From Siphonodentalium dalli (lineage: Eukaryota; Mollusca; Scaphopoda; Gadilida; Siphonodentaliidae), in the NCBI GenBank assembly GCA_032622095.1, contig CP136069.1, positions 30,260,342 through 30,324,341 of the forward strand: a stretch of 64,000 nt of DNA, written 5' to 3'. Below, piece by piece: positions 44,301 through 62,111 of this stretch (the stretch's first letter is position 1; every line of letters starts with the position of its first letter). The notes beneath the pieces are model-generated. The model was given only the letters and a program-made list of their open reading frames with translations, did no database searches and was not told where the DNA came from. A program made the position numbers and the translations under genes.

Positions 44301-47300
44301 GCGAGTAATTTGTGGCAAATACCAATAAGACGAAAGGTTTTATTTATGAGTGTAAGCGGTTCTTGTGTAGCGCTGAGAGTGGTTTTCCTAAATTGTTTCG
44401 ACATTGATGAAACTACGGTACATAAAGAGCCTTTATTAAAGAATCAATAAACTTTCCATTTGACGGCTGTTGAACAACTGGGTTAAGAATTCGATAGATA
44501 GGACCGAGTGATTGAAATTGCCGGTCTATTGACGGATTGGAATTGGTTGGAATGTGGATTGGATAAGGAAATTAAACGTTTTTTTCTCAGTTTAGGCAAA
44601 CTGAGGTAGTGCATGAATGGAAATATTAACGTTTCCTAGACACTACAATTTATGGAAATATTTATGGTGGGGTTTTAAGGTGGGGACAAAAGACAGATTC
44701 AAGACAGTCCCTACAATTACAATGTCATGATGCAAGTCTATGCTCCTTCATGAATATTCATGTATATTGAAGCTGTAAAGTTGCTAAAACCATATAAGCT
44801 GCTAAAACCATGTAAGCTGTTAAATCCGTGTTAGCTGCTAAATACATGTAAAACCATGTAAGCTGCTAAAACCATGTAAAACCATGTAATCTGCTAAAAC
44901 CATGTAAAACCATGTAAGCTGCTAAATACATGTAAAACCATGTAAGCTGCTAAAACCATGTAAAACCATGTAATCTGCTAAAACCATGTAAAACCATGTA
45001 AGCTGCTAAATCCATGTAAGCTGTTAAAACCATGTAAGCTGCTAAAACCATGTAAAACCATGTAATCTGCTAAAACCATGTAAAACCGTGTAAGCTGCTA
45101 AAACCATATAAGCTGCTAAATCCATGTTAGCTGTTAAAACCATGTAAGCTGTTAAAACCATGTAAAACCATGTAAGCTGCTAAAACCACGTAAGCTGCTA
45201 AAACCATGTAAAACCATGTAAGCTGCTAAACCACGTAAAACCATGTTAGCTGCTAAAACCATGTAAGCTGCTAAATCCATGTAAAACCATGTAAGCTGCT
45301 AAAACCATATAAAACCGTGTAAGCTGCTAAAACCATGTAAGCTGCTAAAACCATGTAAAACCATGTAAGCTGCTAAATCCATGTAAAACCATGTAAGCTG
45401 CTAAATCCATGTAAAACCATGTAAGCTGCTAAAACCATGCAAAACTATGTAACCTGCTAAATCCATGTAAGCTGCTAAAACCATGTAAAACCACGTAAGC
45501 TTCTAAAACCATGCAAAACAATGTAAGCTGGTAAAACCACGTAAGCTATTAAAACCATGTAAGCTGCTAAAACCCATGTAAGCTGCTAAAACCATGCAAA
45601 ACCATGTAAGCTGGTAAAACCATGTAAGCTGGTAAAACCATGTAAGCTGGTAAAACCATGCAAAACCATGTAAGCTGCTAAAACCATGCAAAACCATGTA
45701 AGCTGGTAAAACCATGTAAGCTGGTAAAACCATGTAAGCTGCTAAAACCATGCAAAACCATGTAAGCTGCTAAAACCATGCAAAACCATGTAAGCTGGTA
45801 AAACCATGTAAGCTGGTAAAACCATGTAAGCTGCTAAAACCATGCAAAACCATGTAAGTTGCTAAAACCATGCAAAACCATGTAAGCTGGTAAAACCATG
45901 TAAGCTGGTAAAACCATGTAAGCTGCTAAAACCATGCAAAAACATGTTAGCTGCTAAAACTACGTAAAACCATGTAAGCTGCTGAAACCATGTAAAAAAT
46001 CAAAGTCAAAAGTTTTGACATCTTTATTGTTATATGCATGATGTGGTCTTCAGATAGCATAGATTCCTTCAGGTACTGTATTTGCTTAAGGGACAGGTGG
46101 GCTTCGTTGTAGGTTATAATTTAGAAATAACATTTATCAAATAGAGTCACTAAATATACCCTCTGGGGACCTCTTTCTGCAAATGTCAGACACACTAAAT
46201 TCAGACTTGAATGGGACATTGGGTGAAGATGAATTGTATCTCAGACATAACATGACATGAGAGATACAGTAATGCCCTAAGTAATCGACTCCTTAACCAC
46301 AGCAGAATTATGGGTAACTTTTCAGGATTTAGTCGGAAATATGGCATGTTGCCATTCATCGGAAAGCTCTCTCCGACAGCTTTCCGATGAATGGCAACAA
46401 GCCATATTTCCGACTAAATCCTGAAAAGTTACACATAATTCTGCTGTGGTTAAGGAGTCGATTATTTAGGGCATTACTGTATAAGATGGAGCAGATAAAG
46501 CTTCAATGGTTTTCATTGTGAAAGCTGATCAATTATCTGGTTTCCTCCATGAAGCTGATAGCAGGAACCAGTCTAGAGGGAGGGTTATCTCCCATGTTGT
46601 TACACCCCTGCATGCAATAGATAATTTAGATTAACTTTGAGCATGGAGACATACAGTAATGCCCTAAATAATCGACTCCGTAACCACAGCAGATTTATGG
46701 GTAACTTTTCAGGATTTTGTCGGAAATATGGCTTGTTGCCATTCATCAGAAAGCTCTCACTGAGAGCTTTCCGACGAATGGCAACAAGCCATATTTTCGA
46801 CTAAATCCTGAAAAGTTACCCATAATTCTGCTGTGGTTAAGGAGTCGATTATTTAGAGCATTACTGTAGATCATTAGATTAACTTTGAGCATGGAGACAT
46901 AAAACAAATATAATGATAAAACGATGTCAGCTGGTAATTTTAATGTGGTTGTATTTATCTACATCTTCACATGATATCTTGAGGGCCAATGGGCAATTGG
47001 GAAAGATGAATAATTATAGGTTTCCTGGATATAGAAAATAGCAGGAACCAGCCTAAAGGGAGAATGGCGAAATATGTCCAACTCCTCCCTGAAATTAGTC
47101 ATTTCTTATTTTTTTTTCACGAGAGAGAAGTTCAAATTCCTCCAAATGGATTCAAATTAACCTTAAATATGTATAATTCGAGCAGAAATGTGTAAAATAC
47201 TGTAATTTGCCACAATTGCGCCCTGAAGTACCATTCAATTTTCCCAAAAATTATGCGAATTTGACAGAAAGTATCTCCCAATTTGTATGAAAAGTCCCAA

Positions 47301-50300
47301 ATTTTGAGCTTTCAAAACATTTGGGGGGGGGGGGGGGTCTGCAGCCCTCACAGCCATCCCTGGCCCGTACCGCCTATGGATATCATTCGGATATGTTGAG
47401 GAGAGAGAACCAGTCACATTCAGTTACGATGTGGAGGAGGAACAAGTCACATGGGTACGTTTCCTACTGTAGATATCATTCGGATATGAAGCAGTGATAG
47501 ACAAAAATGTAAATCTGTCCATTACGTTGAGTGAAACATGCAAATGATAGCAGATTTGATCGAGCAGACAACGGTGACAAATTGCGTGGGGAAACAGGGA
47601 ATTAATTGTTGGTGCTATGGGAATTACAATGAAGGAAATAATATCTTAACGAAAACAACTGATGTTTGTCCAATTTCCGTGATACATCTGATAAGTACTG
47701 TTACGATATAACCCTTTTTCACCATGAATTTCTAATTTTGTATGGTGCTAATATCACTCAGGTTGCTAAGAAGAAATTTGTTTCAAGAAGTTTAGTATGG
47801 GAGAAATGCATCACCATGGTTACTACAGGGCAGACCTAATCAAATTCAATGTCATTCAAAGCCATTTCACGAAAAATTGCAAGGTTTTCAAGGCCTGTTA
47901 TTAACCCTTTCAGTGCCAAGTCCGATTTTTGTATCAATCCATATTTCCTTGATCATTTTTCAAATTTATTAATTATAATAATGTGATACATTGATGGAAA
48001 GAGTTAACACAATCTATACTAAATAGTCATTGACGAATAGTTCCATTTGGAAATGTTCAGATTATAAATTCAACAAAACAAAACTATTGTTGATCTTATT
48101 AGCTGAACATTTCCCATTCATTTTAAAGGTACGCAATCCGATTTGATGGTCCCCATATAATCAGATTCCAACAACAACAACATTTTGTGAAATGCTGCTT
48201 CAGTTATCAGAATTGATTAATTGCCCATAAATAAAGTTAACAACAGTCAACTATAGTATAAAATTGCCCAAAACATGTTATTCATCAACATTGTTGATAT
48301 TAGAGTTATCCATCTTCATTCACAATTTTGTCCTGGACCGTTGCCTTGACAATTTTTTCCAGGCCACAAATAAGTACATATATCGAGAAATAACAAATTT
48401 CAAAAATTGATATCTGATTACTCTGAGCTTTGATGGGTGAGTTTCTCGACTCGATTCAAATATTTTTTACCCCAATGCCAAAGATATGGTCATTTGGGAG
48501 CGTTAATTTGGATTATGCATCTTTAAATTGAACAGTTACAAAATTGAGTTTTCAAAATTTCAAAATTTTCTGGATCTAAATAAGACCAGCGCTTGAATGG
48601 TGAGTATACGATGCCAGGAGGGTGTGTAATAAATACTGTACTCACTGACGGTGTAGGTGTGGCAGGTTGTAGTTTGAGTGGTCCCACAGCGATACTGTTC
48701 AGGTTACTTTCCGACCTGCAAGAGATCATTGTTTGAGTGTCAATGAGAAAAATATGTCAACTGAACCGCTAACATCTCGTCAAAAATCAACTTATAACGA
48801 CTATCAGAAAAATGTCAACATAATTGCTATCTAGTATGTACATGTGATTGGAAACGAGCAATTATCTCGGTTTGCAGCAAGGTCAACAAATTAATTTTTC
48901 AAGTGCATCATACATGTGTATTGCTTGCTGATTAAAAGACGATAAATATGACCTTGTAATAGTAAATTGAGTGTTGATTTATCAATATTCATCTCATTAT
49001 CGCCGAGCAGCCAATTGGTCTTCTTTAAATTCAAATGAATCACTGATGAATGCATGAGTATATAATTTAACTGCTCCATGTTTGTAAATTATAGGGTTCA
49101 GCCTGGTTAAAGTACACTGTATTTTAACCCTTTCATGACTGGAGCTTCCATAAATTTTGCGAAAATCCAGTGCCAATGCATTCTCTTATTTATATATAAG
49201 AGAATGCATTGGCCTAACAATATTTACTTTGAACTTGTAAGACAGTGCATTCTCTTATATATTATATAATATTATATTGTTAGGCCAATGCATTCTCGTA
49301 TATATGTGAGGCGCCCTATGGGCGACTCGCATATATAAGAGAATGCATTGGCACGGGGTTTTTCGCAAAATTTCATAAAGCTCCAGTCATGAAAGGGTTA
49401 ACTCCAGAAGAAATGAATGGACATATTTGACTCCAATCCTATGTATTGACACCTGCCAACAAGAAATTTGGGTTGTAGCGTGATCAAATTTGTTTTGAAT
49501 TTAGATTCTTCATTGGCTTGTGACAATAAATGGTGATCAATTTAACATGATACAATCCTCTCTTATTTCTCTGTGACATATCTTATCCTGATGTTAATGG
49601 TAAGTTTATCTACGTCTTTTCAACTACTACCTGCACTCCCTTTCCCTTTCTCTTTCCTATCCCTTCATCTATAAACTTTATTATTCGGACCATACAGAAC
49701 CAAACCCGTCTGCTATACCCCAATGGTATCTATTGGGGTAACATTTATTTACTGAGGATAGGACTTAACAAAAGCCCCCAAGCTTGTTGCCCAATCCTCT
49801 TTTGAACAATTTAAGATTATATGTTATGTATTTATTGTTTGTAATTCTGTTCTGTTTAGTTCAAATAAAATATTGTTTAAACCAACAAGAAATTTGATTT
49901 GATTTTAAATTTTCCATGGTTCGTAAATAGTATATGTTATAAATACCAAAGTTGTGTAACTAAAAATATATACGGTACTTCGTTTCACTACCCTCTTTCA
50001 TTTTGACTGATGTAAGGTATACAATACCAATTAACTTGACTTCCTGCACTCTATCCCTCTACCCCCTCCTAGAACAATATTTTTTCGGATCTAACATGTT
50101 ATCCCCATCTGCTAAATTTACCCATTATGGTATCTATTCTGATACCAAGGGTAACTTTCTTATTCCGAGGAAAAGACTTGATAAAAGCCTTTCAGGCTTG
50201 CTGTCTTATCCCCGTTTTTGAACATGTGTTGTAAAAATTATGCCAATTTGTTTGTATGTATTGAATGTTGCGTTCGAAAATTAAATATTGTTTACACTGA

Positions 50301-53300
50301 CAGGAAATTGCAGGGAACAAGCCTATGTATGGGTGTGATATTTCACTCTGATAAACCGAACAAGTGTATGCAACTATGCGTGGATGATTGATATGTGGAA
50401 CTTACCTGCATATGACGAATTTGAGCGGATCACCGGTGATTCCCTTTATCATAGCAGAAGCATTCAAGTGACTCCTTCCGTACAACACCTGACCATTTAT
50501 CTGCAAACAATGAAAGAAACTTGTAGTAATATATATATCTATTTTTTTTCAAGTCTATATAGTATAAGCCTCAGGGTCCAGCCTAGAGGGCGACTAGGGA
50601 GACAATTTCTCCTTAAAAGCCGACTTAAGTTTTTAGTCACTGATTATTTTTTTTATAGTGGCTTGATATACGGTTTTAATAACAATCTATGCCATAAAAT
50701 ATGATTAAAATACTATAATTCATCACCATTTGGAACGTCTGTGTCTCAGAAGGTGCCCATAGAGTAATAGAAAATAGCTGAAATCATAGAAAGATTTCCC
50801 CTGTTATGGCTCCCAGAATGCAACAAAATTCAAACTAAAAATGTATTTTCAATGGAAGGGGAATAACTCTTGTCTTTAAGATATAGAGTTATTACCCCTC
50901 CATTGAAAATAATGCATTTTTGCACTACAATCCAGATGAAACTTAAGCACAAAAACACGGCGGTAACTCAACAAAAACAACATGTTCACTGTTTATTACG
51001 CTGGTTAATTTTGATAACACTATGTTTTGGAGTTTCCTCTTTCAAATGGTATATAATATGGCATATATTTTATATAATGTGATCTGGGAGATCAAAAATT
51101 AAGTGGGCCTTTACAAGCCTTGAAATAGTGTGTCTGTCATTTGCAGAATGAGGTCCCCAGAGGGTGAATTTGGTGATGCTAGCCCGCTATGCGGGGTAGC
51201 ATCACTAAATTCACCCTCTGGGGACCTCATTCTGCAAATGACAGACACACTATTTCAAGGCTTGCTGATAACTGAAGCGCATTTCTAAAAACGTTGTTGT
51301 TGTTGGAATCTGATGATATGGGGACCATCGAATCGGATTGAGTACCTTTAAATCTGTCTACGTCTCAGTCTTAAGGGTAAAATCATAATCTTTCTGTTCA
51401 AATCTCTATACTGTACAAACCTCAAGTAACTCGTCTCCTATCTGTATCCGGCCGTCCTTGGCGGCGAGACTCTCTGGTTGTATGCCGACGACAAACACGC
51501 TCATCGTATTACGGTCCTTATTTCCGGCCAAACTCAGACCAAGGTTGTTTCCATCTCGGTTCAATTCCAAAACCATCACTTCACCAGTCAAGTCATTATA
51601 CTTTCGTTGTAATTTTTCTGCAATAAAGAAAAAAATGTCTACATAGAATTGCGATATGACCTTGCCAAAAGCTGGTTACCGGTACAAGACTCATCCTGAT
51701 TGGTCAGTAGCCTGTGTTCCTGGACCGTTGATATCTGATGTTTAGATTTCTCTGAGTGTTGCTATGTGTCTGTCAATAGGGACCTGTGATGTGACCTCTT
51801 ATAGATGCTCAATAGGATGCACAAAGTTTTACTCACGATCAAGTGATGCTGATGAATCTTCAAATTTGGAATTCCAAATAAAGTATTTTTGAATATTAAA
51901 GATATGTTGAGATATTTTGCACAAATCCGTGGAAAAAGTTAGAAAAAAAAGGAGAAATATTTTTTGAAAACATTGAATCAAATTCAATATAAAATGTGAA
52001 TAAATTCCTCAAAATTTTAGAATATAAATATCAAATTCAGAAAGCAGAAATTTAATGGTCCTACCTTCCTCCGTTTCATAACTATGAAGATTCATCACCA
52101 TCGTGTAATCCGGAATGAGGCGGAATAACATCTGCTAATCAAAGAGATGCCTTACGTAAGCTGGCGTTAAGTGCAAATTAAATAAATCTATAGTGGTAAG
52201 TGTCCCAGAAAATCAGAGAAATCCTTCAGTGAGAAGGAAAAAAAATGTCTCTCAGTGGTCTTGTTAATTAATTAGTGTCGGCTATAGATGGAGTCTTGAA
52301 ATAGTGTCATTTGTGGAATGAGGTCCCCAGATGGTGAATTTAGTGACGTTATCCCTCTGGGAACCTCATTGCCGAGACCTCAGCTGCAATGGGAGTTCCC
52401 CAGTTGAAGTTGGTGATGTTCACCCATCAGTCACCTCGATTATGCATTTTATCTTCTACAAATTAGGGGATATAGAAACTTCCCAGAAGGGAAAAAGTAA
52501 CTAAAAATAATGTTAACTTGAGACTATATAGATACTTCCCAGAATATGAGGCTTAAGCAGAATATTATAAAGGTCCCCAGAGTATGAAGTAGTGATGCTA
52601 GCTCACTGTGCGGAATATCATCAATAAATTCGCCCTCTGGGGGTCCTCATTTTGCAAATGACAGACAGACTATTTCAAGGCTGGTATATTGGGCGAGATG
52701 ATGCAAATGCCAAGCAAAATAAATTTTGTCGGCTACAGTAATGCTCTAAGTAATCGACTTCATGGGTAACTTTTCAGGATTTAGTCGGAAATATGGCTTG
52801 TTGCCATTCATCGGAAAGCTCTCCCCCGAGAGCTTTCCGATGAATGGCAACAAGCCATATTTCCGACTAAATCCTGAAAAGTTACCCATAATTCTGCTGT
52901 GGTTAAGAAGTCGATTATTTAGAGAATTTCTGTATCTTTCAAGGCCAGGAACATTTCAAAGCCTGACAATAATTTGTATAAAATTGAAACAAATTGCTGC
53001 TGACATTGTCTGAGTTAGTGTGCCTGTCATTTGCAGAATGAGGTCCCCAGAGGGTGAATTTAGCGATGCTATCCCGCATAGTGGGCTAGCATCACTAAAT
53101 TCACCCTCTGGGGACCTCATTCTGCTTAGGCCTCATCTTCTCTGGAAAGTTCCTTTATTATCAAATATCTATAGAAACTTCTTCGCATAGATTCTATTTC
53201 TTTTTTAGTTTAGTTTCTCTATATCCCTGAATTGGCAGACGACACATTGCATAATCAAGGTTCCCAATGGGTGTACATCACAATATTCACCATTTGGGAA

Positions 53301-54462
53301 CTGCAATCTGAGTCAATGTCTTCCATAGCTAATGAGGCCATGCAGAATGATGCTCCCGGAGGGTGAATTTAGTGATGATAGCCTGCTATGTGGGATAGCG
53401 TCAATAAATTCACTCTCTGGGGACCTCATTCTGCAAATGATAGGCACGCTATACTCAGCCGCCAGACACAACCACAGTCTGCCATGAAAATGGACCAAGT
53501 TCCAATTGTAAAATCGAGTTATATGTGTAACTCTGTGGATCCTAGGCATTTTAGATGAGGAAAATTTCTTACCTAGGCAATATACTAGCCTAGGAAAATT
53601 TCTTGCCTAGGAAATATAATTATTAGCCTTGGAAATTTCCGTGCCTAGGTAATATATTAGCCTAGGAAAAATTCTGCTAATTAACAGGACTGTATATACT
53701 GAGAGTTTTCCGATGAATGGCAACAAGCCATATTTCCAACTAAATCCTGAAAAGTTACCCATAATTCTGCTGTGGTTAAGGAGTTGAATATTTAGGGCAT
53801 TTCTGTAAGTCTTGTTCTATGCAAATATGGATTATTCTATGATAGGCTTATAACAGGATATGATCTCTTATTAACCCTTTGAGTGCCAGGTCGATTTTTT
53901 TATCAACCCATATACCCTGTGCCAATGCATTCTCTTATATATGAGAGTCGACCATAGGTCGCCTCGCATATATAAGAGAATGCATTGGCCTAAAAAATTT
54001 TTTTTTATTTATTTTTATTTTTTATTTTTTACAATTTTAATAATTTATTCTTATATTCTTTAACAAACTTATTTTGTAGGTTTAGGCCGATGAGATCGGC
54101 CCCTGGCACTCAAAGGGTTAATACACATAAAGATAAAGTAGCTACCTAGCTGCAATATATTCTGTGACCAGCTGATTCAATTATGTTAAAGATTGGAAAA
54201 ACATTGGGCTTTACCTGCTCATAAACTTTAAATCTGAAACTACGAATTGAGTATTTTGAAATAATAAAGATAAAAAAAAATCTAAGAAATATTCTTAAGA
54301 ACTTTGAATCGTAGTCAAAGTTGAATATAAAATCATTCTATCAAATTCTAAATATAAGAGCATTAATTCAGAAAGCATAAATTTGATGGTCCTACCTTCT
54401 TCGGTTTCATAACTATGAAGATTCATCACCATCGTGTAATCCGGAATGACGCGGAATAACAA
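20188..54462 (-). CDS. MPDZ: MPDZ/MUPP1-like multi-PDZ scaffold gene, partial (span of all exons found)
   Basis: Thirteen exons plus one duplicate exon on the minus strand join in frame with GT donors and AG acceptors at every boundary. In order they encode a linker, PDZ8 ([11 protein letters not shown] core), a Ser/Pro-rich linker, PDZ9 (GLGFAILED), a proline-rich linker, PDZ10 ([12 protein letters not shown]), PDZ11 ([14 protein letters not shown]) and a basic Ser-rich linker. Domain order and linker peptides match vertebrate MUPP1 PDZ8-11 from family knowledge; PATJ lacks the PDZ9 equivalent, so MPDZ is the better name. PDZ domains bind C-terminal peptides; His at the start of helix B in PDZ8 and PDZ10 predicts class I ligands, whereas PDZ9 and PDZ11 lack it. 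About 1.6 kb of coding sequence lies in 34 kb, so introns make up about 95%. The 5' part (L27, PDZ1-7) and 3' part (PDZ12-13) were not found here. Confidence 0.9.
20362..20786. mobile_element. CAAG-family composite element
   Basis: Two hairpins with middle cccatttgggaacctcgatt; starts 32 bp upstream of the acceptor of exon 20188-20329. Confidence 0.75.
20790..21512. other. unique intron sequence
   Basis: No coding signal recognised. Confidence 0.5.
21515..21696. mobile_element. TA-flanked foldback MITE, loop-deleted
   Basis: Both ends present; about 35 bp missing around the centre. Lies 20 bp from the splice donor at 21716. Confidence 0.88.
21717..21833 (-). CDS. MPDZ: MPDZ exon: PDZ11 middle to helix B
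   Basis: The 39 codons read [20 protein letters not shown] then [19 protein letters not shown]. Helix B begins with Gln rather than His, as in other MUPP1 PDZ11 domains. A TA-flanked foldback element ends 20 bp downstream of the donor (gtaag). Confidence 0.95.
21936..22215 (-). mobile_element. poly-A retrocopy (processed transcript 3' end or LINE tail)
   Basis: On the minus strand the insert ends in AATAAA (21953-21958) followed after a few bases by about 12 A (21934-21945). Direct repeats of cttcaccctt lie at 21926 and 22216. That is the signature of L1-type retroposition. No protein is recognisable, so it is probably a truncated 3' UTR. Confidence 0.75.
22216..23160. other. unique intron sequence
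   Basis: No coding signal. An open frame at 22904-23116 (+) has no family match or splice context. Confidence 0.5.
23167..23394 (-). CDS. MPDZ: MPDZ exon: end of PDZ10 and start of PDZ11
   Basis: The largest exon seen (228 nt, 76 codons). It runs [20 protein letters not shown] to [10 protein letters not shown] (end of PDZ10, class I His in THDYA), a short acidic linker [10 protein letters not shown], then [30 protein letters not shown]. The KRND loop marks PDZ11. Phase 0 both ends. Confidence 0.95.
23400..23840. other. unique intron sequence
   Basis: Nothing recognised. Confidence 0.5.
23843..24150. mobile_element. CAAG-family composite element, degenerate
   Basis: Middle segment (agttcccagatggtgaatat, ggggaaacagagaaa) with one decayed hairpin. 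Confidence 0.6.
24190..24602. mobile_element. GGGGGTATA-ended element, second copy
   Basis: Ends with tatacccccccccac-acttcgt-gcaggggggttata hairpin after gacggatggatggac; contains ttttctaagtcgaaaaaggg as in 1128-1700. Confidence 0.55.
24684..24740. repeat. 17-bp tandem repeat, 3 units
   Basis: Unit agcaatgccggtcagtc, between a CAAG-family scrap and unique sequence. Confidence 0.9.
25161..25551. mobile_element. TTAA element, CCCAACA class, minus orientation
   Basis: Complete, but the left terminus reads ttaaacactttgcccaac, and the same ttaaacactttgc word follows the right terminus, so the left end was overwritten by flank sequence. Confidence 0.85.
25736..26010. repeat. dispersed element with two 125-130 bp core copies
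   Basis: ccagaaacatgcctatatga, caaggtcaaggacac, gtgaaattgga and cccgggatcaa recur in order in both copies; a short (CA)n tail follows. Confidence 0.7.
26446..26529 (-). CDS. MPDZ: MPDZ exon: PDZ10 middle
   Basis: The 28 codons read [20 protein letters not shown] then LAGDQILD, nearly identical to the family consensus. Acceptor tttttcag, donor GAT/gtaag. The intron after GDQILD is in the same place and phase as the one in PDZ8. Confidence 0.95.
26602..27806. mobile_element. CTATACTAAAT-class TTAA element with its 3' end amplified
   Basis: The left end CCCTTTCTATACTAAATGG inverts to the right end tttagtatagaaagggttaa. The right terminal 68 bp, including the terminal repeat and TTAA, is tandemly repeated 15 times. 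Confidence 0.75.
26786..27806. repeat. 68-bp minisatellite, 15 units
   Basis: Unit: acgtattatcagaacatttc, ttatgggataactactcatc, aatgagtatttagtatagaa, agggttaa. Each unit ends in the element terminus. Confidence 0.97.
27834..28277. mobile_element. TTAA element, AAAGGTAC class
   Basis: TTAAAGGTACTCAGTCTGAT left, atgcatcTTTAA right. Aligns along its length with 48123-48536. Confidence 0.7.
28326..28485. mobile_element. TA-flanked foldback MITE, right end lost
   Basis: Right arm stops at ctaaatcctgc where the next copy begins. Confidence 0.88.
28486..28656. mobile_element. TA-flanked foldback MITE, head-to-tail neighbour, loop deleted
   Basis: Complete ends; the central roughly 45 bp is missing. 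It directly abuts the previous copy. Confidence 0.88.
28660..29020. other. unique intron sequence
   Basis: A short dup at 28670-28730 (agcattataG/cacagaaaattagcagga). Nothing else recognised. Confidence 0.5.
29023..29227. mobile_element. TA-flanked foldback MITE, eroded ends
   Basis: Arms clear from gactccttaaccacag inward; outer ends mutated. Confidence 0.82.
29254..29730. mobile_element. CAAG-family composite plus a second truncated copy
   Basis: CAAGCCTGCAAATAG start, two hairpins around the gatatagaaacttcccag middle; a new caagcctggattt start at about 29660 is cut after one half-hairpin. Confidence 0.7.
29815..29942. mobile_element. CTATACTAAAT-class TTAA element, right part
   Basis: Ends cattcagtatagaaagGGTTAA; shares gtctgctt and catccctccaaat words with 2862-3020. 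Confidence 0.6.
29979..30059. mobile_element. CAAG-family fragment
   Basis: caagcctgagtttagtgtgc to the hairpin top, then cut. Confidence 0.7.
30061..30124. mobile_element. Helentron/pearl-like 3' end
   Basis: gacgacggacgcaaa, ccatggcaatagctcaaact and the terminal hairpin closing in gagctaa, as at 37510-37585. Confidence 0.65.
30139..30289. mobile_element. CAAG-family monomer (151 bp) with target duplication
   Basis: Near-perfect palindrome. Flanks ataagaat / ataagaac agree at 7 of 8. Confidence 0.9.
30364..30395. mobile_element. TA-flanked foldback MITE, terminal scrap
   Basis: tacagtaatgccctaaataa then tcgactc. Confidence 0.75.
30396..30920. other. intron sequence, possible LINE-like tail at its end
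   Basis: 30860-30920 has cttaaagaccattaaaaca followed by four (atctt) units, which resembles a retroposon tail. The rest shows nothing. Confidence 0.4.
30921..31111. mobile_element. TA-flanked foldback MITE, left end replaced by microsatellite
   Basis: Begins at ccttaaccacagcag directly after (atctt)n; right end complete. Confidence 0.85.
31318..31408. repeat. 45-bp tandem duplication
   Basis: gttcatcggttatctcgtcc and following to cctcagataaca occurs twice in tandem. Confidence 0.9.
31558..31690. mobile_element. CAAG-family element, single hairpin
   Basis: aaatagtgtgcctgtc start, both hairpin arms present, right end lost. Confidence 0.7.
31845..32405. mobile_element. GTCATATTGGACTC element, copy 1
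   Basis: Aligned along its length with 59988-60556. Ends in a 165-bp palindrome (about 32230-32393) with arms attatacaatgttgtgtaca. The word aaaagtcatattggactc recurs. A decayed frame in the middle gives ENQLSAD-like and TKITTK-like peptides in different frames. Confidence 0.7.
32499..32976. mobile_element. CAAG-family composite element
   Basis: Two hairpins and the tatatcccccaattggcaga middle. Flanks ctcgaggc / ctctaggc agree at 7 of 8. Confidence 0.8.
33010..33226. mobile_element. TA-flanked foldback MITE
   Basis: Complete; 56 bp from the donor of exon 33283-33446. Confidence 0.9.
33283..33446 (-). CDS. MPDZ: MPDZ exon: proline-rich linker and start of PDZ10
   Basis: Phase 1 entry completes Gln, then [17 protein letters not shown], a polyproline run, [12 protein letters not shown] and the PDZ10 start [24 protein letters not shown]. 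The peptide TCDIVPG before the domain is typical for this position in MUPP1/PATJ. Acceptor attgtagcag, donor CTG/gtaatt. Confidence 0.94.
33582..33981. mobile_element. TTAA element, CCCAACA class
   Basis: Complete 400-bp copy with exact TTAA at both ends; in the intron 135 bp upstream of the acceptor at 33446. Confidence 0.9.
34110..34363. mobile_element. CAAG-family dimer (254 bp) with exact 8-bp target duplication
   Basis: Target tacctggc at 34102-34109 and 34364-34371. Two hairpins joined at ctgctgagatgtaagcag. Confidence 0.92.
34372..35135. other. unique AT-rich intron sequence
   Basis: No coding signal supported; a hydrophobic 66-codon frame at 34795-34998 (+) looks like AT-rich chance. 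Confidence 0.5.
35136..35318. mobile_element. TA-flanked foldback MITE, right arm shortened
   Basis: Both ends present; the right arm lacks the actaaatcctgaaaagttac segment. Confidence 0.88.
35492..35657. mobile_element. TTAA element, CATGA class, left end lost
   Basis: One and a half hairpins (CTCCC:GGGAG tip), right end cagtcatggaagggtcaa. Confidence 0.7.
35685..37585 (+). mobile_element. Helentron/pearl-like element with tandem core array
   Basis: Left end gaaagtgtcaatgacactg then tagctcaacttgg; right end gacgacggacgacaaagc, ccatggcaatagctcaaac and a hairpin closing in GTTGAGCTAA (CTRR-like). Inverted subterminal repeats, a 3' hairpin and a central array of about 160 bp are the layout of Helentron-associated elements and the oyster pearl family. 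No Rep/helicase coding sequence is present. Confidence 0.7.
35804..37480 (+). repeat. 164/155-bp core satellite, about 11 units in two types
   Basis: Each unit starts near aaatccaagatggc(t/c). Start-to-start distances are 163, then a truncated unit, 164, 164, 155, 164, 164, 164 and 155. The 155-bp type carries gacgaacagtacgacctgtg and taatggatt(a/g)aattttg; the 164-bp type carries tttagtcatacaaagagtaa. Confidence 0.92.
37588..38065 (-). repeat. 49-bp minisatellite, 10 units, first unit spans a splice donor
   Basis: On the minus strand each unit reads about ctcaagttctccacctc, gtaagtacatgtaacacg, tattataatag. The unit at 38037 is the real exon/intron junction. Units near 37695, 37742 and 37842 keep gtaagt, one near 37793 has gtatgt; the others read ataagt or equivalent. 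Confidence 0.92.
38043..38148 (-). CDS. MPDZ: MPDZ exon: end of PDZ9 and linker; donor embedded in a minisatellite
   Basis: This 106-nt exon encodes [19 protein letters not shown] (helix B and strand F of PDZ9) then a Ser/Pro tail ending SSSSPP in phase 1. The donor CCACCTC/gtaagt and the last roughly 19 exon bases are the first unit of a 49-bp tandem array that fills the next 450 bp of intron. Several array units still carry a GT donor. Confidence 0.88.
38210..38473. mobile_element. TTAA element, CATGA class
   Basis: TTAACCCTATCATGACGCGA to gagtcatggaaggGTTAA, two hairpins; 61 bp upstream of the acceptor at 38148. Confidence 0.8.
38528..38672 (-). mobile_element. LINE-like 3' end with 14-bp target duplication
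   Basis: Target aatatattaaattt at 38514-38527 and 38673-38686. On the minus strand it holds the stem-loop aagccctcgggcttgttgtc followed by AT-rich sequence and ggaaataaaaat, as in non-LTR 3' UTRs. Confidence 0.75.
38862..38936 (-). CDS. MPDZ: MPDZ exon: PDZ9 strands D-E
   Basis: The 25 codons read [15 protein letters not shown] then [10 protein letters not shown], the GD-x-IL segment and start of helix B. The helix lacks the class I His, as is usual for this domain. Phase 0 both ends, acceptor cttcacag, donor AAA/gtaagt. Confidence 0.92.
39009..39033. repeat. poly-C tract
   Basis: About 24 consecutive C. Confidence 0.95.
39034..39178. repeat. two interlocked inverted repeats
   Basis: Arms agccaatcaccgctcagtgt and continuing (39034-39061) pair with 39099-39126. 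A second pair, aatattcattatgacctgac (about 39076-39097) and ggtcaggtcacaatgaatat (about 39150-39171), overlaps it, so the two hairpins exclude each other. Confidence 0.85.
39180..39769. other. intron sequence with a GC-richer patch
   Basis: 39520-39770 is GC-richer with CpGs (acgcgaagaagacgcg) and open on the plus strand from 39523, running into a repeat. No family match; not called a gene. Confidence 0.4.
39770..39873. mobile_element. CAAG-family element, right part
   Basis: Hairpin and aaactcaggcttg end. Confidence 0.7.
39880..40400. other. unique AT-rich intron sequence
   Basis: Nothing recognised. Confidence 0.5.
40401..40617. mobile_element. TA-flanked foldback MITE
   Basis: Complete; paired changes in both arms (gacctcttaaccaaagcag / ctgctttggttaagaggtc). 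Confidence 0.92.
40618..40680. repeat. tandem duplication of taagatttgagacgcaatat
   Basis: The word occurs at about 40617 and 40660. Confidence 0.85.
40723..40821 (-). CDS. MPDZ: MPDZ exon: PDZ9 core
   Basis: The 33 codons read [12 protein letters not shown], then [19 protein letters not shown]. The GLGF loop and the strand-C/alpha-A residues place this as PDZ9. Phase 0 at both ends, acceptor cttacag, donor AAG/gtaaac. A TTAA element begins only 32 bp upstream of the acceptor, leaving a possible branch site (taactaa) between them. Confidence 0.92.
40854..41105. mobile_element. TTAA element, CCCAACA class, single-hairpin form (252 bp)
   Basis: Both termini intact, but only one hairpin module; the spacer and second hairpin are absent. 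Confidence 0.9.
41106..41711. other. unique intron sequence
   Basis: Nothing recognised. Confidence 0.5.
41720..42180. mobile_element. CAAG-family composite element (461 bp)
   Basis: CAAGCCTGAGTTTAG to ctaaactcaGACTTG with the full middle segment. Flanks tttcttgc / tttcttga agree at 7 of 8. Confidence 0.85.
42205..42348 (-). CDS. MPDZ: MPDZ exon: Ser/Pro linker and first strand of PDZ9
   Basis: This 144-nt exon is flanked by acceptor ccttacag and donor AAG/gtatgc. It encodes a Ser-Pro-rich stretch with SPKSPKSP (possible proline-directed phosphosites) and ends QTLTLIK, the first beta strand of PDZ9. A CAAG-family element ends 24 bp downstream of the donor. Confidence 0.9.
42349..42667. other. 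unique intron sequence
   Basis: Nothing recognised apart from exon-proximal intron. Confidence 0.5.
42668..42933. mobile_element. TTAA element, CATGA class
   Basis: TTAACCCTTCCATGGCTGGA to catcatgaaagggTTAA; two diverged hairpins. Confidence 0.78.
43145..43336. mobile_element. TTAA element, CATGA class, left end lost
   Basis: Two hairpins, right end cagtcatggaaggGTTAA. Confidence 0.72.
43527..44028. mobile_element. TTAA element with expanded A-rich spacer, left end lost
   Basis: The spacer word attgttaaagaatgtaagaa is repeated irregularly about eight times over 340 bp, against one in normal copies. Right end catcatcaaaggGTTAA. Confidence 0.75.
44030..44780. other. unique intron sequence
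   Basis: Nothing recognised. Confidence 0.5.
44782..45995. repeat. two-block minisatellite (aaaaccatgtaagctgct / aaaaccatgtaa)
   Basis: About 1.2 kb built from an 18-19 bp block and a 10 bp block in changing order. Variants shift along the array: ctgcta early, ctggta and accatgc after 45580. Open minus-strand frames here are repeat translation, not genes. Confidence 0.95.
46145..46209. mobile_element. CAAG-family fragment
   Basis: One half hairpin with attcagacttg end. Confidence 0.65.
46265..46481. mobile_element. TA-flanked foldback MITE
   Basis: Complete copy. Confidence 0.92.
46652..46868. mobile_element. TA-flanked foldback MITE between 27-bp direct repeats
   Basis: Complete; ttagattaactttgagcatg and gagacata occurs on both sides (ending 46653 and starting near 46874). 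Confidence 0.92.
46905..47900. other. unique intron sequence with a poly-G tract
   Basis: About 14 G at 47323-47337. No coding signal. Confidence 0.5.
47901..48007. mobile_element. TTAA element, CAGTGCCAAGTC class, one arm
   Basis: Matches the left arm of 62643-62853 as far as the tip, then gttaac. Confidence 0.75.
48008..48122. mobile_element. CTATACTAAAT-class fragment
   Basis: ctatactaaatagtcattga and gaacatttcccattc, minus orientation relative to 26602. Confidence 0.5.
48123..48536. mobile_element. TTAA element, AAAGGTAC class
   Basis: TTAAAGGTACGCAATCCGAT to ttatgcatcTTTAA; a long diverged copy of 27834-28277. Confidence 0.7.
48646..48715 (-). CDS. MPDZ: MPDZ exon: linker after PDZ8
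   Basis: A 70-nt exon (acceptor cttgcag, donor TCA/gtgag) completes an Arg codon and encodes [20 protein letters not shown]. This is a low-complexity linker that continues the PDZ8 C-terminal strand. It is supported by phase continuity on both sides rather than by a domain. Confidence 0.85.
48716..49120. other. unique intron sequence
   Basis: Nothing recognised. Confidence 0.5.
49124..49401. mobile_element. TTAA element, CATGA class
   Basis: TTAACCCTTTCATGACTGGA to cagtcatgaaaggGTTAA, near-perfect ends. Second hairpin tip is CGCCC:GGGCG. Confidence 0.85.
49471..49881 (+). mobile_element. LINE-like 3' end with 15-bp target duplication
   Basis: Target ccaacaagaaatttg at 49456-49470 and 49882-49896. 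Contains aaaagcccccaagcttgttg stem-loop and a terminal tcaaataaaatattg. Confidence 0.78.
49980..50305 (+). mobile_element. LINE-like 3' end, second copy
   Basis: Same order of landmarks as 49471-49881 (ctgcactctatccct, gacttgataaaagcctttca, ttaaatattgtttaca), diverged; no target duplication seen. Confidence 0.65.
50406..50500 (-). CDS. MPDZ: MPDZ exon: PDZ8 helix B and strand F
   Basis: The exon reads [20 protein letters not shown] then [11 protein letters not shown], completing PDZ8. The His of GRSHLNA is the helix-B residue that reads a Ser/Thr at ligand position -2, so a class I ligand is predicted. Acceptor gtttgcag and donor CAG/gtaag bound 95 nt; phase 2 exit. Confidence 0.93.
50838..50922. 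repeat. short foldback
   Basis: Arms atgtattttcaatggaaggg and inverse around cttgtctttaagatata. Confidence 0.85.
51114..51264. mobile_element. CAAG-family monomer (151 bp)
   Basis: Perfect-looking palindrome, both CAAGCCTTGAAATAG ends intact. It sits at the edge of an AAAGGTAC-class remnant. Confidence 0.92.
51274..51351. mobile_element. AAAGGTAC-class TTAA element, end fragment, inverted
   Basis: tggggaccatcgaatcggat then tgagtaccTTTAA; 69 bp from the donor of the PDZ8 exon. Confidence 0.65.
51421..51617 (-). CDS. MPDZ: MPDZ exon: PDZ8, strands A to helix B approach
   Basis: This 197-nt exon begins [18 protein letters not shown], then the carboxylate-binding loop [23 protein letters not shown] and [13 protein letters not shown]. 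The LAGNKDR signature is diagnostic of the MUPP1 PDZ8 / PATJ PDZ6 class. It ends in phase 0 after the Glu of GDELLE (donor gtttgt), a classic PDZ intron position. The acceptor is ctttattgcag. Confidence 0.93.
51870..52240 (-). repeat. segmental duplication block a (with alternative exon copy a)
   Basis: About 370 bp around the exon at 52065 is alignable by eye to 54225-54580, with matching landmarks on both exon flanks (e.g. ttcagaaagca, ccttacgtaagctgg). Flanks carry many substitutions and indels; the offset is 2331 bp. Confidence 0.8.
52065..52131 (-). CDS. MPDZ: MPDZ alternative exon, copy a (downstream duplicate)
   Basis: The exon encodes MLFRLIPDY then [13 protein letters not shown]. 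It runs from an acceptor (tttgattagcag) to donor GAAG/gtagg and leaves phase 1, completing a Glu codon with the AA that opens the PDZ8 exon. An in-frame TAG sits just upstream of the acceptor, so if this were a first exon translation could start at one of its ATGs. The shared acceptor position with copy b argues that it is an internal exon. Confidence 0.7.
52292..52683. mobile_element. CAAG-family composite element, degenerate
   Basis: Two decayed hairpins and the ggggatatagaaacttccca middle. Confidence 0.7.
52734..52934. mobile_element. TA-flanked foldback MITE
   Basis: Both ends present; left arm lacks ccttaaccacagcagaatt. Confidence 0.88.
53012..53460. mobile_element. CAAG-family composite element
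   Basis: Two hairpins with middle in the orientation agtttctctatatccctgaa. Confidence 0.75.
53560..53672. repeat. 34-38 bp tandem repeat with CCTAGG palindromes
   Basis: Three units of ggaaaatttcttgcctagg, caatatattagccta. Confidence 0.85.
53699..53807. mobile_element. TA-flanked foldback MITE, right arm only
   Basis: From gagagttttccgatg to tttctgta. Confidence 0.82.
53871..54121. mobile_element. TTAA element, GAGTGCCAGG class
   Basis: TTAACCCTTTGAGTGCCAGG and its exact inverse at the right; contains one CGACC:GGTCG hairpin module and an AT-rich spacer. Confidence 0.88.
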
Positions 54463-54580
54463 CTCTAACTACTTATCAACGAGATGCCTTACGTAAGCTG
54501 GTGTTAAGTTTAAATTAAATAAATCCATCGATGAAAGTGTTGTAGAAAATCCGAGGAAATCCCTTCGACTAGGAAAAAAA
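54225..54580 (-). repeat. segmental duplication block b (with alternative exon copy b)
   Basis: Counterpart of the block at 51870-52240 in the same orientation. The 2 kb between the blocks is mainly later MITE insertions. Confidence 0.8.
54396..54462 (-). CDS. MPDZ: MPDZ alternative exon, copy b (upstream duplicate)
   Basis: This 67-nt exon encodes LLFRVIPDY followed by [13 protein letters not shown] and ends in phase 1 at a donor reading GAAG/gtagg. The acceptor AG lies directly before the TTG Leu codon. It is a near copy of the exon at 52065-52131: 4 of 67 bases differ and 2 of 22 residues, while the flanking intron is visibly more diverged. Joined to the PDZ8 exon it gives an uninterrupted frame. 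Either duplicate could be used, so mutually exclusive splicing is the likely reading. Confidence 0.65.
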
Positions 54581-54584
54581 ACTC

Positions 54585-55200
54585 CTTATTGTCACACACG
54601 AGTCTGTGGTTTATGCGACTCGGTCTGGTTTATACAAATGACGATATCTTTAATCAAAGTCAGCAGACACACTGAAGGAGTTAGAATAACCCGGATTTAA
54701 TAGACAAAAAACTCATCAATATCGTATTAATTTACTCAATGGTCCTGCTACGCTCAAGTTTTCTCTGGAGAAGGTCGTAGACATATATTAAATGGTTTCC
54801 GATCTCCATCGGACAAAACTCTTGTTGACGAATAAGAGCAAATAAATCTATATTGGAATAATTTGTGAAAGCTTGGATAAATCGTTTCGTCAATAATTTT
54901 GAGTACCCACACGGTAGATTAAGTGCGGGGAGGAATCGGGGGAGGAAATCTTGGAATATTAACAGCTTGTTTTCACGCTTGTTATGTTAAGGAATAGGGT
55001 CTATAAACATCGTTTATATAGAAGAGTACTCTCATTCGTCGTCCTTAATATAACATTATTGGTTCAAATCAAAGAAGTGGGATGTGTTTACACTCATTCT
55101 ATATTAACTCTGTCAAGTCTGGGTAAATTGGCTTAGAAACACTTTCCCAAGTTTTGTCCTAGGGAGAAGCGACTTCTCTCCCATATGGCAGTATGCATAT
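54585..55200. other. unique sequence upstream of the duplicated exon
   Basis: No PDZ coding or promoter recognised. If the duplicated exon were a first exon, its promoter would be expected here. Confidence 0.45.
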
Positions 55201-55211
55201 TTCAAAACAGT

Positions 55212-55292
55212 GTATACCCTGTGCCAATGCATTCTCTTATATATGCGAGTCGACCATAGGTCGCCTCGCATATATAAGAGAATGCATTGGCC
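55212..55292. mobile_element. solo hairpin module of the TTAA families
   Basis: Complete ccctgtgccaatgcattctc hairpin with CGACC:GGTCG tip, then a short T/A spacer, without TTAACCCTTT ends. Confidence 0.8.
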
Positions 55293-55495
55293 TAATAATT
55301 TTTTACAATTTTAATAATTTGTTCTTGTATTCTTTAACAATTTTATAATTTCACCCATACAGAGCCCCAGACAAACATGAGCAGACGACACTCTTCTATG
55401 TGCTTCTATATATGTGTGGGGCTCCCTGCAGGGTAATATATAACGGTGTTCTTATTCATTATAATGGTTTTATAAATGAGCTCGTGTTGCAAAAT

Positions 55496-55960
55496 ACAGT
55501 AATGCTCGAATTAATCGACTCCTTAACCCTTTACCCAACAAAACGGCCAAAACCGGCCAAATGAAGCTTCAACAGCCTAAATTATCTTGGGTCTGTCTCA
55601 ATAAAACCATACAAATATGGATATCATTGGAACCGGCTCATTGACCACATTGTGATGGTTACAGTTATGCCCTGTGCCAATGCATTCTCTTATATATGCG
55701 AGTCGACCATAGGTCGCCTCGCATATATAAGAGAATGCATTGGCCTACCGGTAACAATATAATTGTAAGCCAGTGCATTCTCTTATATATGCGAGGCTCT
55801 TTTTTTAACACTTTTTACCTATGGTCGACTCGCATATATAAGAGAATGCATTGGCACAGGGCCGTTCTGTTGGGTAAAAGGTTAACCACAGCAGAATTAT
55901 GGGTAACTTTTCAGGATTTAGTCGGAAATATGGCTTGTTGCCATTCATAGGAAAGCTCTT
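55496..55960. mobile_element. TA-flanked foldback MITE split by a TTAA element
   Basis: tacagtaatgctcgaattaa, tcgactccTTAA then the insert at 55523-55885, then TTAAccacagcagaattatg. Only the left arm remains. Confidence 0.9.
55523..55885. mobile_element. TTAA element, CCCAACA class, inserted at TTAA of a foldback MITE
   Basis: The intact family has ctccTTAAccacag at this place, so the duplicated TTAA is directly shown. The inner region is rearranged. Confidence 0.93.
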
Positions 55961-56094
55961 ATTGGATCATATAATGTTGACGTTGGGGTGTAAATTGAAC
56001 TTCAGCCTTTATGAATTTCTCCCATAAAATCTAATCAGGAAAAGTGACTAAAATCTCACAAGTTATTTTCTCTAGACTGGTCCCAAGCCTGTCA

Positions 56095-56318
56095 TTTTCA
56101 GAATGAGGCCCCCAGAGGGTGAATTTAGTGATGCTATACATCACAATATTCACCATTTGGGAACCTCAATCTGAGTCTATGTCTCCCATATCAGATGAGG
56201 CCTAAAGCAGAATGAGGTTCCCAGAGGGTGAATTTGGTGATGCTAGCCCACTATGTGGGATAGCATCCCTAAATTCATCCCGGGCCTCCGGGGACATTGT
56301 TCTGCAAAAACAGGCACA
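56095..56318. mobile_element. CAAG-family element, disrupted
   Basis: caagcctgtcattttcagaa start, second hairpin decayed, cut by the insertion at 56319. Confidence 0.7.
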
Positions 56319-56718
56319 TTAACCCTTTACCCAACAGAAGGGCCCTGTGCCAATGCATTCTCTTATATATGCGAGTCGACCATAGGTCGCCTCGCATATA
56401 TAAGAGAATGCATTGGCTTAACACATTAAAAATTATAAAATTGTTAAAGAATCTAAGAAAAAATGGCAAAAAGTGTTAAAAAAAGATTTTTTTTAGGCCA
56501 ATGCATTCTCTTATATATGCGAGGCGACCTATGGTTGACTCGCATATATAAGAGAATGCATTGGCACAGGGCATAACTGTAACTATCACAATGTGGTCAA
56601 GGAGCCGGTTCCAATGATATCCATATGTGTATGGTTCTATTGATACATACCCAAGATATTTTAGGCTGTTGAAGCTTTATTTGGGCGTTTTTGGGCGGTT
56701 TGTTGGGTAAAGGGTTAA
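56319..56718. mobile_element. TTAA element, CCCAACA class
   Basis: Complete 400 bp. Confidence 0.9.
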
Positions 56719-56876
56719 ACTCAGACTTTGACTGGTCCCTGTGTCATGACAGCATGCCTTAACATATGGTGCTGGACATTTTCAGTATGAGGCTAAATGG
56801 GCTCTTGTGTTGCATAATAGTTATTGGATCACAGAAAGGTGATGTTAGAGAGCTTATATATAATTGAACTTCAGCC

Positions 56877-57262
56877 TTAACCCTTTACCCAACAGAAGGG
56901 CCCTGTGCCAATGCATTCTCTTATATATGCGAGTCGACCATATATAAGAGAATGCATTGGCTTAATGCATTAAAAATTATAAAATTGTTAAAGAATGTAA
57001 GAAAAAATGGTAAAAAGTGTCAAAAAAAGTTTTTTTTTAGGCCAATGCATTCTCTTATATATGCGAGGCGACCTATGGTCGACTCGCATATATAAGAGAA
57101 TGCATTGGCACAGGGCATAACTGTAACTATCACAATGTGGTCAAGGAGCCGGTTCCAATGATATCCATATTTGTATGGTGTTATTGAGACAGACCGAAGA
57201 TATTTTAGGCTGTTGAAGCTTTATTTGGGCGTTTTTGGCCGTTTTGTTGGGTAAAGGGTTAA
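56877..57262. mobile_element. TTAA element, CCCAACA class, between about 80-bp direct repeats
   Basis: Complete except for a shortened first hairpin. The left flank from taaatgggctcttgtgttgc to cttcagccttaa is repeated after the right end. Confidence 0.9.
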
Positions 57263-57434
57263 ATGGGCTCTTGTGTTGCATAATAGTTATTGGATCACAG
57301 AAAGGTGATGTTAGAGAGCTTAATTGAACTTCAGCCTTAATGAATTCTCCCTGATAACAGTCCATATCTCCCATATAATCTAATCAGGAGAAGTGACTGT
57401 CACTTCTCCCAGTTTCAATTCTCTGGGCTGGTCC

Positions 57435-57865
57435 CAAGTCTGGGTTAAGTGTGCCTGTCATTTGCAGAATGAGGTCCCCAGAGAATTAATTTAGTGGGCT
57501 AGCATCACCAAATACACCCTCTGGGAACCTCATCCTGCATGACTTCATCTGCTATGGGAGACATAGACTAAGATTGAAGTTCCCAAATGGTGAATATTGT
57601 GATGTACACCCATTAGGAATCTCGATTATGAAATGTGTCGTCCGCCAATTTGGGGAATTAGAGAAAATAAACTAAAAAAGAAATAGAATCTATGTGAAGA
57701 AGTTTCTATAGAAATTTGATAATAAAGAAACTTTCCAGAGAAGATGAGGCCTATATAAAGCAGAATGAGGTCCCCAGATGGTGAATTTAGTGATGGGTAA
57801 TGTAAGTAAATTCACCCTCTGTGGACCTCATTCTGCAAATGACAAGCACACTAAACTCAGACTTG
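57435..57865. mobile_element. CAAG-family composite element
   Basis: CAAGTCTGGGTTAAG to ctaaactcaGACTTG; both hairpins shortened. Confidence 0.75.
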
Positions 57866-57938
57866 TCAGCAGCAATTTGTTTCAAATTTATACAAATATT
57901 ATACAAAATTTATTTTGCATCATCTCAGCCGATAGCGA

Positions 57939-58330
57939 AGCCTTGAAATAGTGTGTCTGTCATTTGCAGAATGAGGTCCCCTGAGGGCGAATTTAGTGAT
58001 GCTACCACTCACAGGGGCTAGCATCACTAAGTTCATCCTCTGGGGACCTCATTCTGCTGTATAATAGCTAGGCCTCATCTTCCGAAAGTATCTGGTCTCA
58101 AATTAACATTGTTTTTTGTTACTGGCTATGTGGGGTAGCATCAGAATGAGACCCCATAGGATAAATTTAATAACGGGGTCTCGGAGATGAGTTTGAAATT
58201 CCCCAGCTGAATTTGGTGATGTTCACCCATTAGTCAGCTTGATTATGCATTACATCTTCTGCAAATTAGGCGATATTGAAACTTTAAAAAAGGGAAAAAG
58301 TAACTTAAATTTTCTTAATTTAACACTAGA
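57939..58330. mobile_element. CAAG-family composite element, right end lost
   Basis: aagccttgaaatagtgtgtc start, two hairpins, middle up to gcgatattgaaac. Confidence 0.65.
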
Positions 58331-58552
58331 TACAGTAATGCTCTAAATAATCGACTCCTTAAATTAACCATAGCAGAATTATGGGTAATTTTTCAGGATT
58401 TAGTCGGAAATATGGCTTGTTACCATTCATCGGAAAGCTCTCACTGAGAGCGCTCCGATTAATGGCAACAAGCCATATTTCCGACTAAATCCTGAAAAAT
58501 TACCCATAATTCTGCTATGGTTAAGGAGTCGATTATTTAGAGCATTACTGTA
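58331..58552. mobile_element. TA-flanked foldback MITE
   Basis: Complete; nested next to CAAG-family pieces. Confidence 0.9.
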
Positions 58553-58921
58553 CTTCCCAGAAGCAGAATGACCTCATTCTGCTTTATATAGGCTTCATCT
58601 TCTCTGGAATGTATCTTTATTATCAAATTAACAAATATTTTAGTTTCTTTAGAAACTTATATAGAAAGTTTCTTTTACTTTTTAGTTCAGATTCTCTCTA
58701 TATCCCCAAATTGGCAGATGATACAATGCATAATCGAGGTGGCCAATGGGTGCACATCACCATCTGGGACTTAAATCTGTGTCTAGGTCTCCCATAGCAG
58801 ATGAGGCCATGCAGAAATCCCCAGAGGATTAATTTGGTGATGCTAGCCTGCAGGTTAGCATCACTAAATTCACCCTCTGGGGACATCATTCTGCAAATGT
58901 CTGGAACCATCTTTTCAGGCC
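58553..58921. mobile_element. CAAG-family composite element, partial
   Basis: cagaatgacctcattctgct then the middle and one hairpin. Confidence 0.65.
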
Positions 58922-58924
58922 CGC

Positions 58925-59275
58925 ACATTAGAGCTACCTTAAAGTTATATGAAACACTCCAGTAGGGTGCTCAAATAATAATAATATATATTTTCGAAAT
59001 CTTTCACCCATTCATGACATTCGCTTACAGATAATCATGTGTTAATTCTCACATGGAGCAGAACAAAAGCTAACTCAGCACATAACAATTGACATATAAC
59101 CATAATGAAATAATTTCTGATGCTGAAGTAACACACTGAGGAAATGACTTTAAAAAAAGCAACTTGCTTGTTGTCAGATCCTCCATAATTCACAATTGAA
59201 AAACTCACTCACCAAAAAAAAAAAAAAAAAAATTGTAATTATAAAGATTCTCATAATGTAATTATATTCATGCAT
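58925..59275. other. unique sequence with a poly-A tract
   Basis: About 18 A at 59214-59231. Nothing else. Confidence 0.5.
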
Positions 59276-59279
59276 ATGT

Positions 59280-59386
59280 GAGAGCTTTCCGATGAATGGC
59301 TACAAGCCATATTTCCGACTAAATCCTGAAAAATTCCCCATAATTCTGCTGCGATTAAGGAGTCGATTATTTATGGCATTACTGTA
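59280..59386. mobile_element. TA-flanked foldback MITE, right arm only
   Basis: gagagctttccgatgaatgg to cattactgta. Confidence 0.82.
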
Positions 59387-59389
59387 GTT

Positions 59390-59744
59390 ATTGATTTTGA
59401 ATCAATTCGGTGCAAGAGTACCGCTACAAAGATTACAAGGATCTCTTTACGTTATTACGTTTTCCGATATAATTCTCATGCTGCCAAGAAAATCCATCTA
59501 AAGTTCAAATGTTGCAGTTTTTATTGGATGTTACATGGTTTTAAATAGACTCGAGAACAAACTGAGTGCAAAATAATAACGAGGAAGTTACGAGTGATGT
59601 TCATTGCTGAACTTTGACAAATTTTCTTGGAATCCGATAACTTCCGCTTCAGAGTACAATTGTACTGACACAGTACGCCCGTTGGCTTGTTTAAAATTGC
59701 ATCTCAGACAGATTCCATAGTAAAAAAAACAAATAAAATAGATT
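59390..59744. other. unique sequence
   Basis: Nothing recognised. Confidence 0.5.
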
Positions 59745-59987
59745 ACCCCTTCAATACCATATGGATTCTCACACCCAGCTATAAAATGTAAATATTAGTC
59801 TATTATTCATTTTGAGGGGTGTTCAAGAAAAATGAGCAGACGACAGTATGATTAAAAGATAATACAAGTGCAGAAGTACTCATATTTTTTGGTGGGAAAT
59901 GTTCAGATAATAAGTTGGAAGTTTGTTGAATTTATTATCAGAACAATTCCTAAGGGAACTACTCGTCAATGAGTATTTATTATTATC
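59745..59987. mobile_element. CTATACTAAAT-class TTAA element, diverged
   Basis: ccccttcaataccatatgga start, gagcagacgacag middle, gtcaatgagtatttatt end, one copy of the 68-bp unit. Confidence 0.6.
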
Positions 59988-60556: not shown

Positions 60557-60780
60557 TTACACAATAGAAAAGGGTTAAGTCTGTTGAAATTCATTGGACA
60601 AATCATGGTTTAAGTACAGCTTGTATTTTGAGCCAATTCAGCCGTAAGTTTAGTGATAATCAACCAAACCTAACCAGGTCAGGCACAATTCCAAATGAGC
60701 TAAATAGCTCATTTGAGCTCATGTAGCTAAATCGGGCTAAATTTTTAATGTGATTTCAGTCCATTTCCTCAGTTCAACAC

Positions 60781-61208: not shown

Positions 61209-61329
61209 TTAAGCACATGGTTTTTCATAAGTTCTAACCAGTGAAATGGAATTAAAATCATACTTATAAACACATGGAGGGAGCCTGTTTTGAGCAGCCA
61301 ATCAGAATGTTTGTTTTATTTTATCTTAG

Positions 61330-61990: not shown

Positions 61991-62111
61991 GTTAAATGAC
62001 ATTGAAAATTTAGCTCGATTTAGCTATGTGAGCTCAAATGAGCTGTTTTGTTCATTGGGCAACTGTGCCCGACCTGTTAACTGCAGTTATCAATAAGATA
62101 AATCAAGAAAA

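Follow-up and report, generated by a model that had tools for sequence, protein, structure and literature searches.

Among 629 human clusters of mutually exclusive exons, 377 have been described with lengths not divisible by three (PMC5740500). The conserved alternative exons described in PMC1543662 have low dS and, in a subset, conserved flanking introns. Multiple starts have been predicted for a multi-PDZ scaffold gene, mpz-1, the PATJ candidate of C. elegans, to which seven promoter regions are ascribed (PMC9006659).

The locus described here lies in a window of 64,000 nucleotides, the whole stretch of DNA analysed, from the scaphopod Siphonodentalium dalli (contig CP136069.1 of assembly GCA_032622095.1). 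Two similar 67-nt segments, copies A and B, precede the PDZ8 exon of a predicted MPDZ/PATJ-type gene on the minus strand. In common with the tandem-duplication exons described in PMC5740500, the segments are adjoining and homologous, continue in frame into the next exon and have a length not divisible by three; unlike those exons, the acceptor of copy B is weak, the conservation extends beyond the exon, and the pair is known from sequence alone. Duplication of this kind is already known, and the pair is a further instance. The host gene is likewise of the same kind as mpz-1, in which alternative starts would shorten the isoforms (PMC9006659), but the available text of that report states no duplication among the promoters and the likeness is one of gene kind, not of exon homology. 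The PDZ8-type domains of PATJ (2daz) and MPDZ (5dth) match the receiving exons but not the duplicated segment, the alignments beginning at residues 22 and 23 of the query, where the segment has its final residue or meets the exon. Among the literature matches listed, no title or abstract concerned duplicated exons or promoters before PDZ8 of MPDZ/PATJ.

Results

The window, whose intron-exon structure and PDZ exons point to an animal, carries on its minus strand what is, by its predicted domains, part of a PATJ/MPDZ-type multi-PDZ scaffold gene: of the solved structures, those of PATJ and MPDZ are closest to its PDZ8-type domain, and there is a row of several PDZ-like exons. The name PDZ8 follows the label of the first-pass annotation and the domain numbering that we take to apply. 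The exons are as follows (a slash marks a splice boundary here and below).

51421 to 51617, minus strand: PDZ8 exon, first part, with the receiving acceptor TTGCAG
50406 to 50500, minus strand: second part of the PDZ8 exon, its 3' end set by visual inspection at GCAG/GTAAGT
around 40821, 38936 (weak), 33369, 26529, 23283 and 21833, minus strand: further PDZ-like exons, downstream

The best PDB matches of the exon 51617-51421 were InaD-like protein 2daz (2.3e-22) and MPDZ 5dth (3.8e-19). With segment B and both PDZ8 exons joined as the query the values were 4.9e-34 and 1.3e-30 respectively, and the translation of B joined to PDZ8 matched Pfam PDZ at 1.7e-14. A PDZ search of 54463-64000 revealed no PDZ domain and no exon upstream of the duplicated segments. 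This silence is weak evidence, since the same Pfam method, which can miss split PDZ exons, returned no PDZ from three frames of 39000-48999 though the PDZ9 exon is present there.

Sequence that resembles some other stretch of the window makes up approximately 52% of it. A short palindromic repeat with arms CCAATGCATTCTCTTATATATG, apparently a MITE-like foldback element present in very high numbers, gave 75 arm matches within 2 mismatches against 0 expected from shuffles (examples at 53922-53988, 55224-55290 and 61744-61810). A second foldback family with arms CAGAATGAGGTCCCCAGAGGGTGAATTT gave 66 arm matches within 3 mismatches (examples at 51144-51234, 53034-53124 and 63579-63772), some of them repeated tandemly every 103 nt. 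Long tandem arrays at 44778-45997, 26782-27807, 14695-15779 and 35811-37488, with units of ~28, 68, 38 and 164 nt respectively, lie mostly between PDZ-like exons of the gene, and 34-nt units rich in CCTAGG form a short array at 53558-53675, between copies A and B.

The duplicated features are listed below.

52065 to 52131, minus strand: copy A, 67-nt exon-like segment, 22 residues, donor GTAGGACC
54396 to 54462, minus strand: copy B, 67-nt exon-like segment, 22 residues, same donor as A, weak GAG acceptor
51847 to 52245, minus strand: full extent of duplicated block A, with weak similarity beyond the core
54216 to 54581, minus strand: full extent of duplicated block B
52034 to 52188, minus strand: conserved core of copy A, 143 of 155 aligned positions identical to B
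54365 to 54525, minus strand: conserved core of copy B, positions transferred through the alignment
52144 to 52164, minus strand: 21-nt element CCAGCTTACGTAAGGCATCTC of copy A, with the palindrome TTACGTAA at 52152-52159
54481 to 54501, minus strand: identical 21-nt element of copy B, palindrome at 54489-54496

Copies A and B are identical at 63 of 67 nucleotides, lie 2331 nt apart and are both 5' of the PDZ8 exon, bearing out the first-pass annotation, which had reported the pair with four base and two residue differences; the amino-acid changes are M/L and L/V, and the other two changes are synonymous. No third copy of the segment was found in the window by blastn or tblastn. Alignment of the two blocks by blastn gave 322 columns at 79% and a colinear patch of 58 columns at 76%. 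Outside the core, the local alignment scores of the flanks were reached by 0 of 500 dinucleotide shuffles in each of four overlapping tests (two sides, two extents each). A block of ~400 nt is truly duplicated on the minus strand and, judging by its flanks, was probably duplicated long ago. An assembly or haplotype artefact is very improbable; two alleles would be unlikely to differ at 65 of 149 aligned positions outside the core, and the 2-kb spacer holds other repeats.

Segmentation of the ungapped alignment from 51935 to 52245 gave one conserved stretch with sharp edges, 52188 to 52034, identical at 143 of 155 positions compared with 84 of 149 (56%) outside it, with a log-likelihood gain of 27.8; no gain above 9.3 arose in 60 permutations. 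The outer flanks differed from the exon (p=5e-9) and from the rest of the core (p=1e-8), whereas within the core the exon (63/67) did not differ from the remainder (79/87, p=0.55). The conserved segment includes non-exon sequence, so the argument from the exon edges fails and the earlier statement that conservation is confined to the exon is wrong. The view that something in both copies has been constrained or homogenised stands. The donor-side 31 nt of the core are identical at 29 positions; the acceptor side is the least conserved part, with 18 of 27 columns matching, and holds the sole indel of the core, 6 nt in length.

Identity of ~92% over exon and intron with abrupt edges resembles a conversion tract. 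An old duplication with a core homogenised by gene conversion, or with only one working copy and a functionless second, is nonetheless unlikely, though with a single genome gene conversion stays conceivable: the acceptor of B looks degraded, as expected with one working copy, but B retains its donor, its open reading frame and its 21-nt element, and no core mismatch falls on codon position 2.

The reading frame was examined for each combination of exons. A+PDZ8 and B+PDZ8 are both open, confirming that both copies join the PDZ8 exon in frame, while B+A+PDZ8 reaches a stop at codon 39 and PDZ8 alone at codon 10; both copies together, or neither, lead to a premature stop. Three does not divide 67, so that a splicing model calls for inclusion of one copy and one only. 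These results are those expected of mutually exclusive exons internal to the linker between PDZ7 and PDZ8, with one copy per transcript, and the copies are tandem homologous segments in one gene and one orientation. In any gene a frameshift tends to meet a stop soon, which weakens the frame argument, and the open frame alone says little, since a simple codon estimate gives an open frame for about a fifth to a third of random 22-codon stretches.

An ATG common to both copies at residue 11, ACACGATGG, has A at -3 and G at +4, a good context, and in each copy the frame meets a TAG shortly before the segment. The ten codons before the common ATG are open in A and B and carry conservative changes only. 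The exon differences comprise two nonsynonymous (54 sites) and two synonymous changes (12 sites), too few for a claim on dN/dS. Third codon positions of the exon are identical at 20 of 22, compared with 85 of 150 in the outer flanks (p=0.002), which indicates that constraint or conversion works at the nucleotide level and not solely on the protein; greater conservation than in the outer flanks is also consistent with mutually exclusive exons. The 12 mismatches of the core fall 7, 0 and 5 times on codon positions 1, 2 and 3 of the exon frame. The chance of none on position 2 is ~0.8% by simple arithmetic, but the pattern is no clean evidence for an exon since 8 of the 12 lie outside it and the TAG breaks the frame upstream in both copies.

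A conserved non-exonic element (an enhancer, a non-coding RNA or the remnant of an older coding segment), in which the 67-nt exon would be an accident of AG and GT, could explain why the non-exon core is conserved as well as the exon. The frequency of open random stretches is compatible with it, and the mismatch pattern extends outside the exon as if a longer open reading frame once ran through. It is improbable nevertheless, given the good donor feeding PDZ8 in frame and the lack of matches to the cores. Rfam returned 0 matches at gathering level over the whole window, and a relaxed search of 51800-54700 returned 11, none on either core. Folds of six stretches were near those of their shuffles (z -0.63 to 1.13), and the non-coding RNA reading was dropped on these results. 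A C/D-box reading, based on GTGATGA and CTGA motifs recognised by eye in the core, was also dropped; visual inspection showed no closing stem, and Rfam was silent. The core translations of both copies, and the two 22-residue segments alone, had no match in Pfam, nor had the core translation of copy A in PDB, and a coding remnant or domain was rejected on that basis. A search of genome contigs for relatives returned one locus, in a bacterial record (L001), at 48% over query residues 21-49; a search of viral contigs returned none, with 0 matches there to two repeat patterns.

The donor AAG/GTAGGACC is identical in A and B, in accord with the common donor of the first-pass annotation, and scored 4.8 with a consensus matrix, compared with 0.97 for the PDZ8 exon's own donor. 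Acceptors were scored with a matrix built from only seven other acceptors of the gene and compared with all minus-strand AGs. The proportion of AGs scoring as well as the A acceptor was 19.9%, against 18.8% for the weakest reference acceptor when left out. The proportion was 81% for the 67-nt form of B and 72%, 93% and 76% for its 69-, 73- and 76-nt forms respectively. The AG of A roughly equals the poorest reference acceptor, and the adjacent options of B, unlike the seven, rank among ordinary AGs. The reported sharing of one acceptor position is doubtful: A reads TTAGCAG/ATG, and B (TAGTTAGAG/TTG) ends in GAG, with the 6-nt indel there. Alternative frame-keeping TAG ends lie 3 nt further upstream in A and 6 nt in B. 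The AG within the 21-nt element (CCAG/CTTACG) did better in B, at 15.3%, with a middling 33.2% in A; its use as acceptor would bring an in-frame TAG inside the exon, making a spliced non-coding-start exon possible.

Scanning of 51640-64000 for exons able to feed PDZ8 left 26 candidates after a donor and frame filter, with A ranked 4, the 70-nt form of A ranked 18 and the 67-nt form of B ranked 22. The candidates above A were 53606-53573, 60998-60851 and 62548-62497. The very weak acceptor of B, in the least conserved part of the core, and the failure to find an upstream exon argue against mutually exclusive internal exons. Regulated internal exons often have weak acceptors.

The strongest upstream conservation is the 21-nt identical element with TTACGTAA, and not a pyrimidine tract. 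The palindrome is separated from the 67-nt segment by 20 nt in copy A and by 26 nt in copy B. No match to CCAGCTTACGTAAGGCATCTC within 3 mismatches was found in the window beyond the A/B pair, and TTACGTAA occurs 3 times in the window against 0.73 expected, two being that pair. NFIL3 and C/EBP alpha/beta are described as preferring the sequence TTACGTAA (PMC10941009), which is here a candidate bZIP-type site, a single bZIP-like 8-mer being no evidence of binding. No RNA pairing partner for the element was found in 51618-60000, where 36 of 40 shuffled elements paired equally or more strongly; docking/selector pairing is unsupported within that region, a further point against mutually exclusive exons.

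Discussion

The best explanation, put forward tentatively, is that A and B are tandem-duplicated alternative first exons in a long intron ahead of PDZ8, each with its own promoter-proximal element. It is favoured by the good donor, the poor acceptor of B, the conserved upstream element without a pyrimidine tract, the common ATG and the upstream in-frame stop. Further support comes from the donor being identical in A and B whereas the acceptor region carries the core's only indel, and weakly from the lack of a PDZ domain in 54463-64000 by a method that missed the PDZ9 exon. As expected of a first exon, the donor is in frame with the shared downstream exon and the start codon is in good context. 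Against it, the AG of A is acceptable by a matrix resting on seven sites, the CCAG of the 21-nt element scores fairly as an acceptor in B, and the ten codons before the ATG are open with conservative changes, which a 5' untranslated region would not need.

Alternative first exons fit slightly better than mutually exclusive internal exons, which we consider unlikely on balance. From the first-pass proposal of a mutually exclusive exon, the duplication and the length forcing one-at-a-time use are retained, and internal use is weakened by the poor acceptors. The acceptable AG of A and the open frame before the ATG keep internal exons nearly as likely as first exons, as does the fact that many mutually exclusive exons have lengths not divisible by three (PMC5740500). 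The suggestion of alternative promoter use, made in the same annotation, appears to fit as well as or slightly better than internal exons.

With A and B as alternative first exons, transcription would start in or near the conserved core of either copy, each having promoter activity, and translation would begin at the common ATG. The transcript would leave through the donor GTAGGACC and be spliced to the PDZ8 exon, yielding a short isoform from PDZ8 onward. Each transcript would carry one copy or the other, the choice perhaps differing between tissues. The duplication, conserved core, donor and frame are the observed part of this model. It is doubtful, though conceivable, that a whole alternative promoter was duplicated in tandem together with its first exon, a candidate bZIP-type palindrome accompanying each copy, which would let almost the same short isoform, from PDZ8 onward, be started at two sites under separate control.

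Unless both copies are used, the locus shows how a conserved AG...GT segment beside an exon can mimic a duplicated exon, and calls for caution. If both are used, selection would have kept two near-identical leader segments while their surroundings drifted to 56% identity, which would point to control of where and when PDZ8 onward is made and not to a change of the protein.
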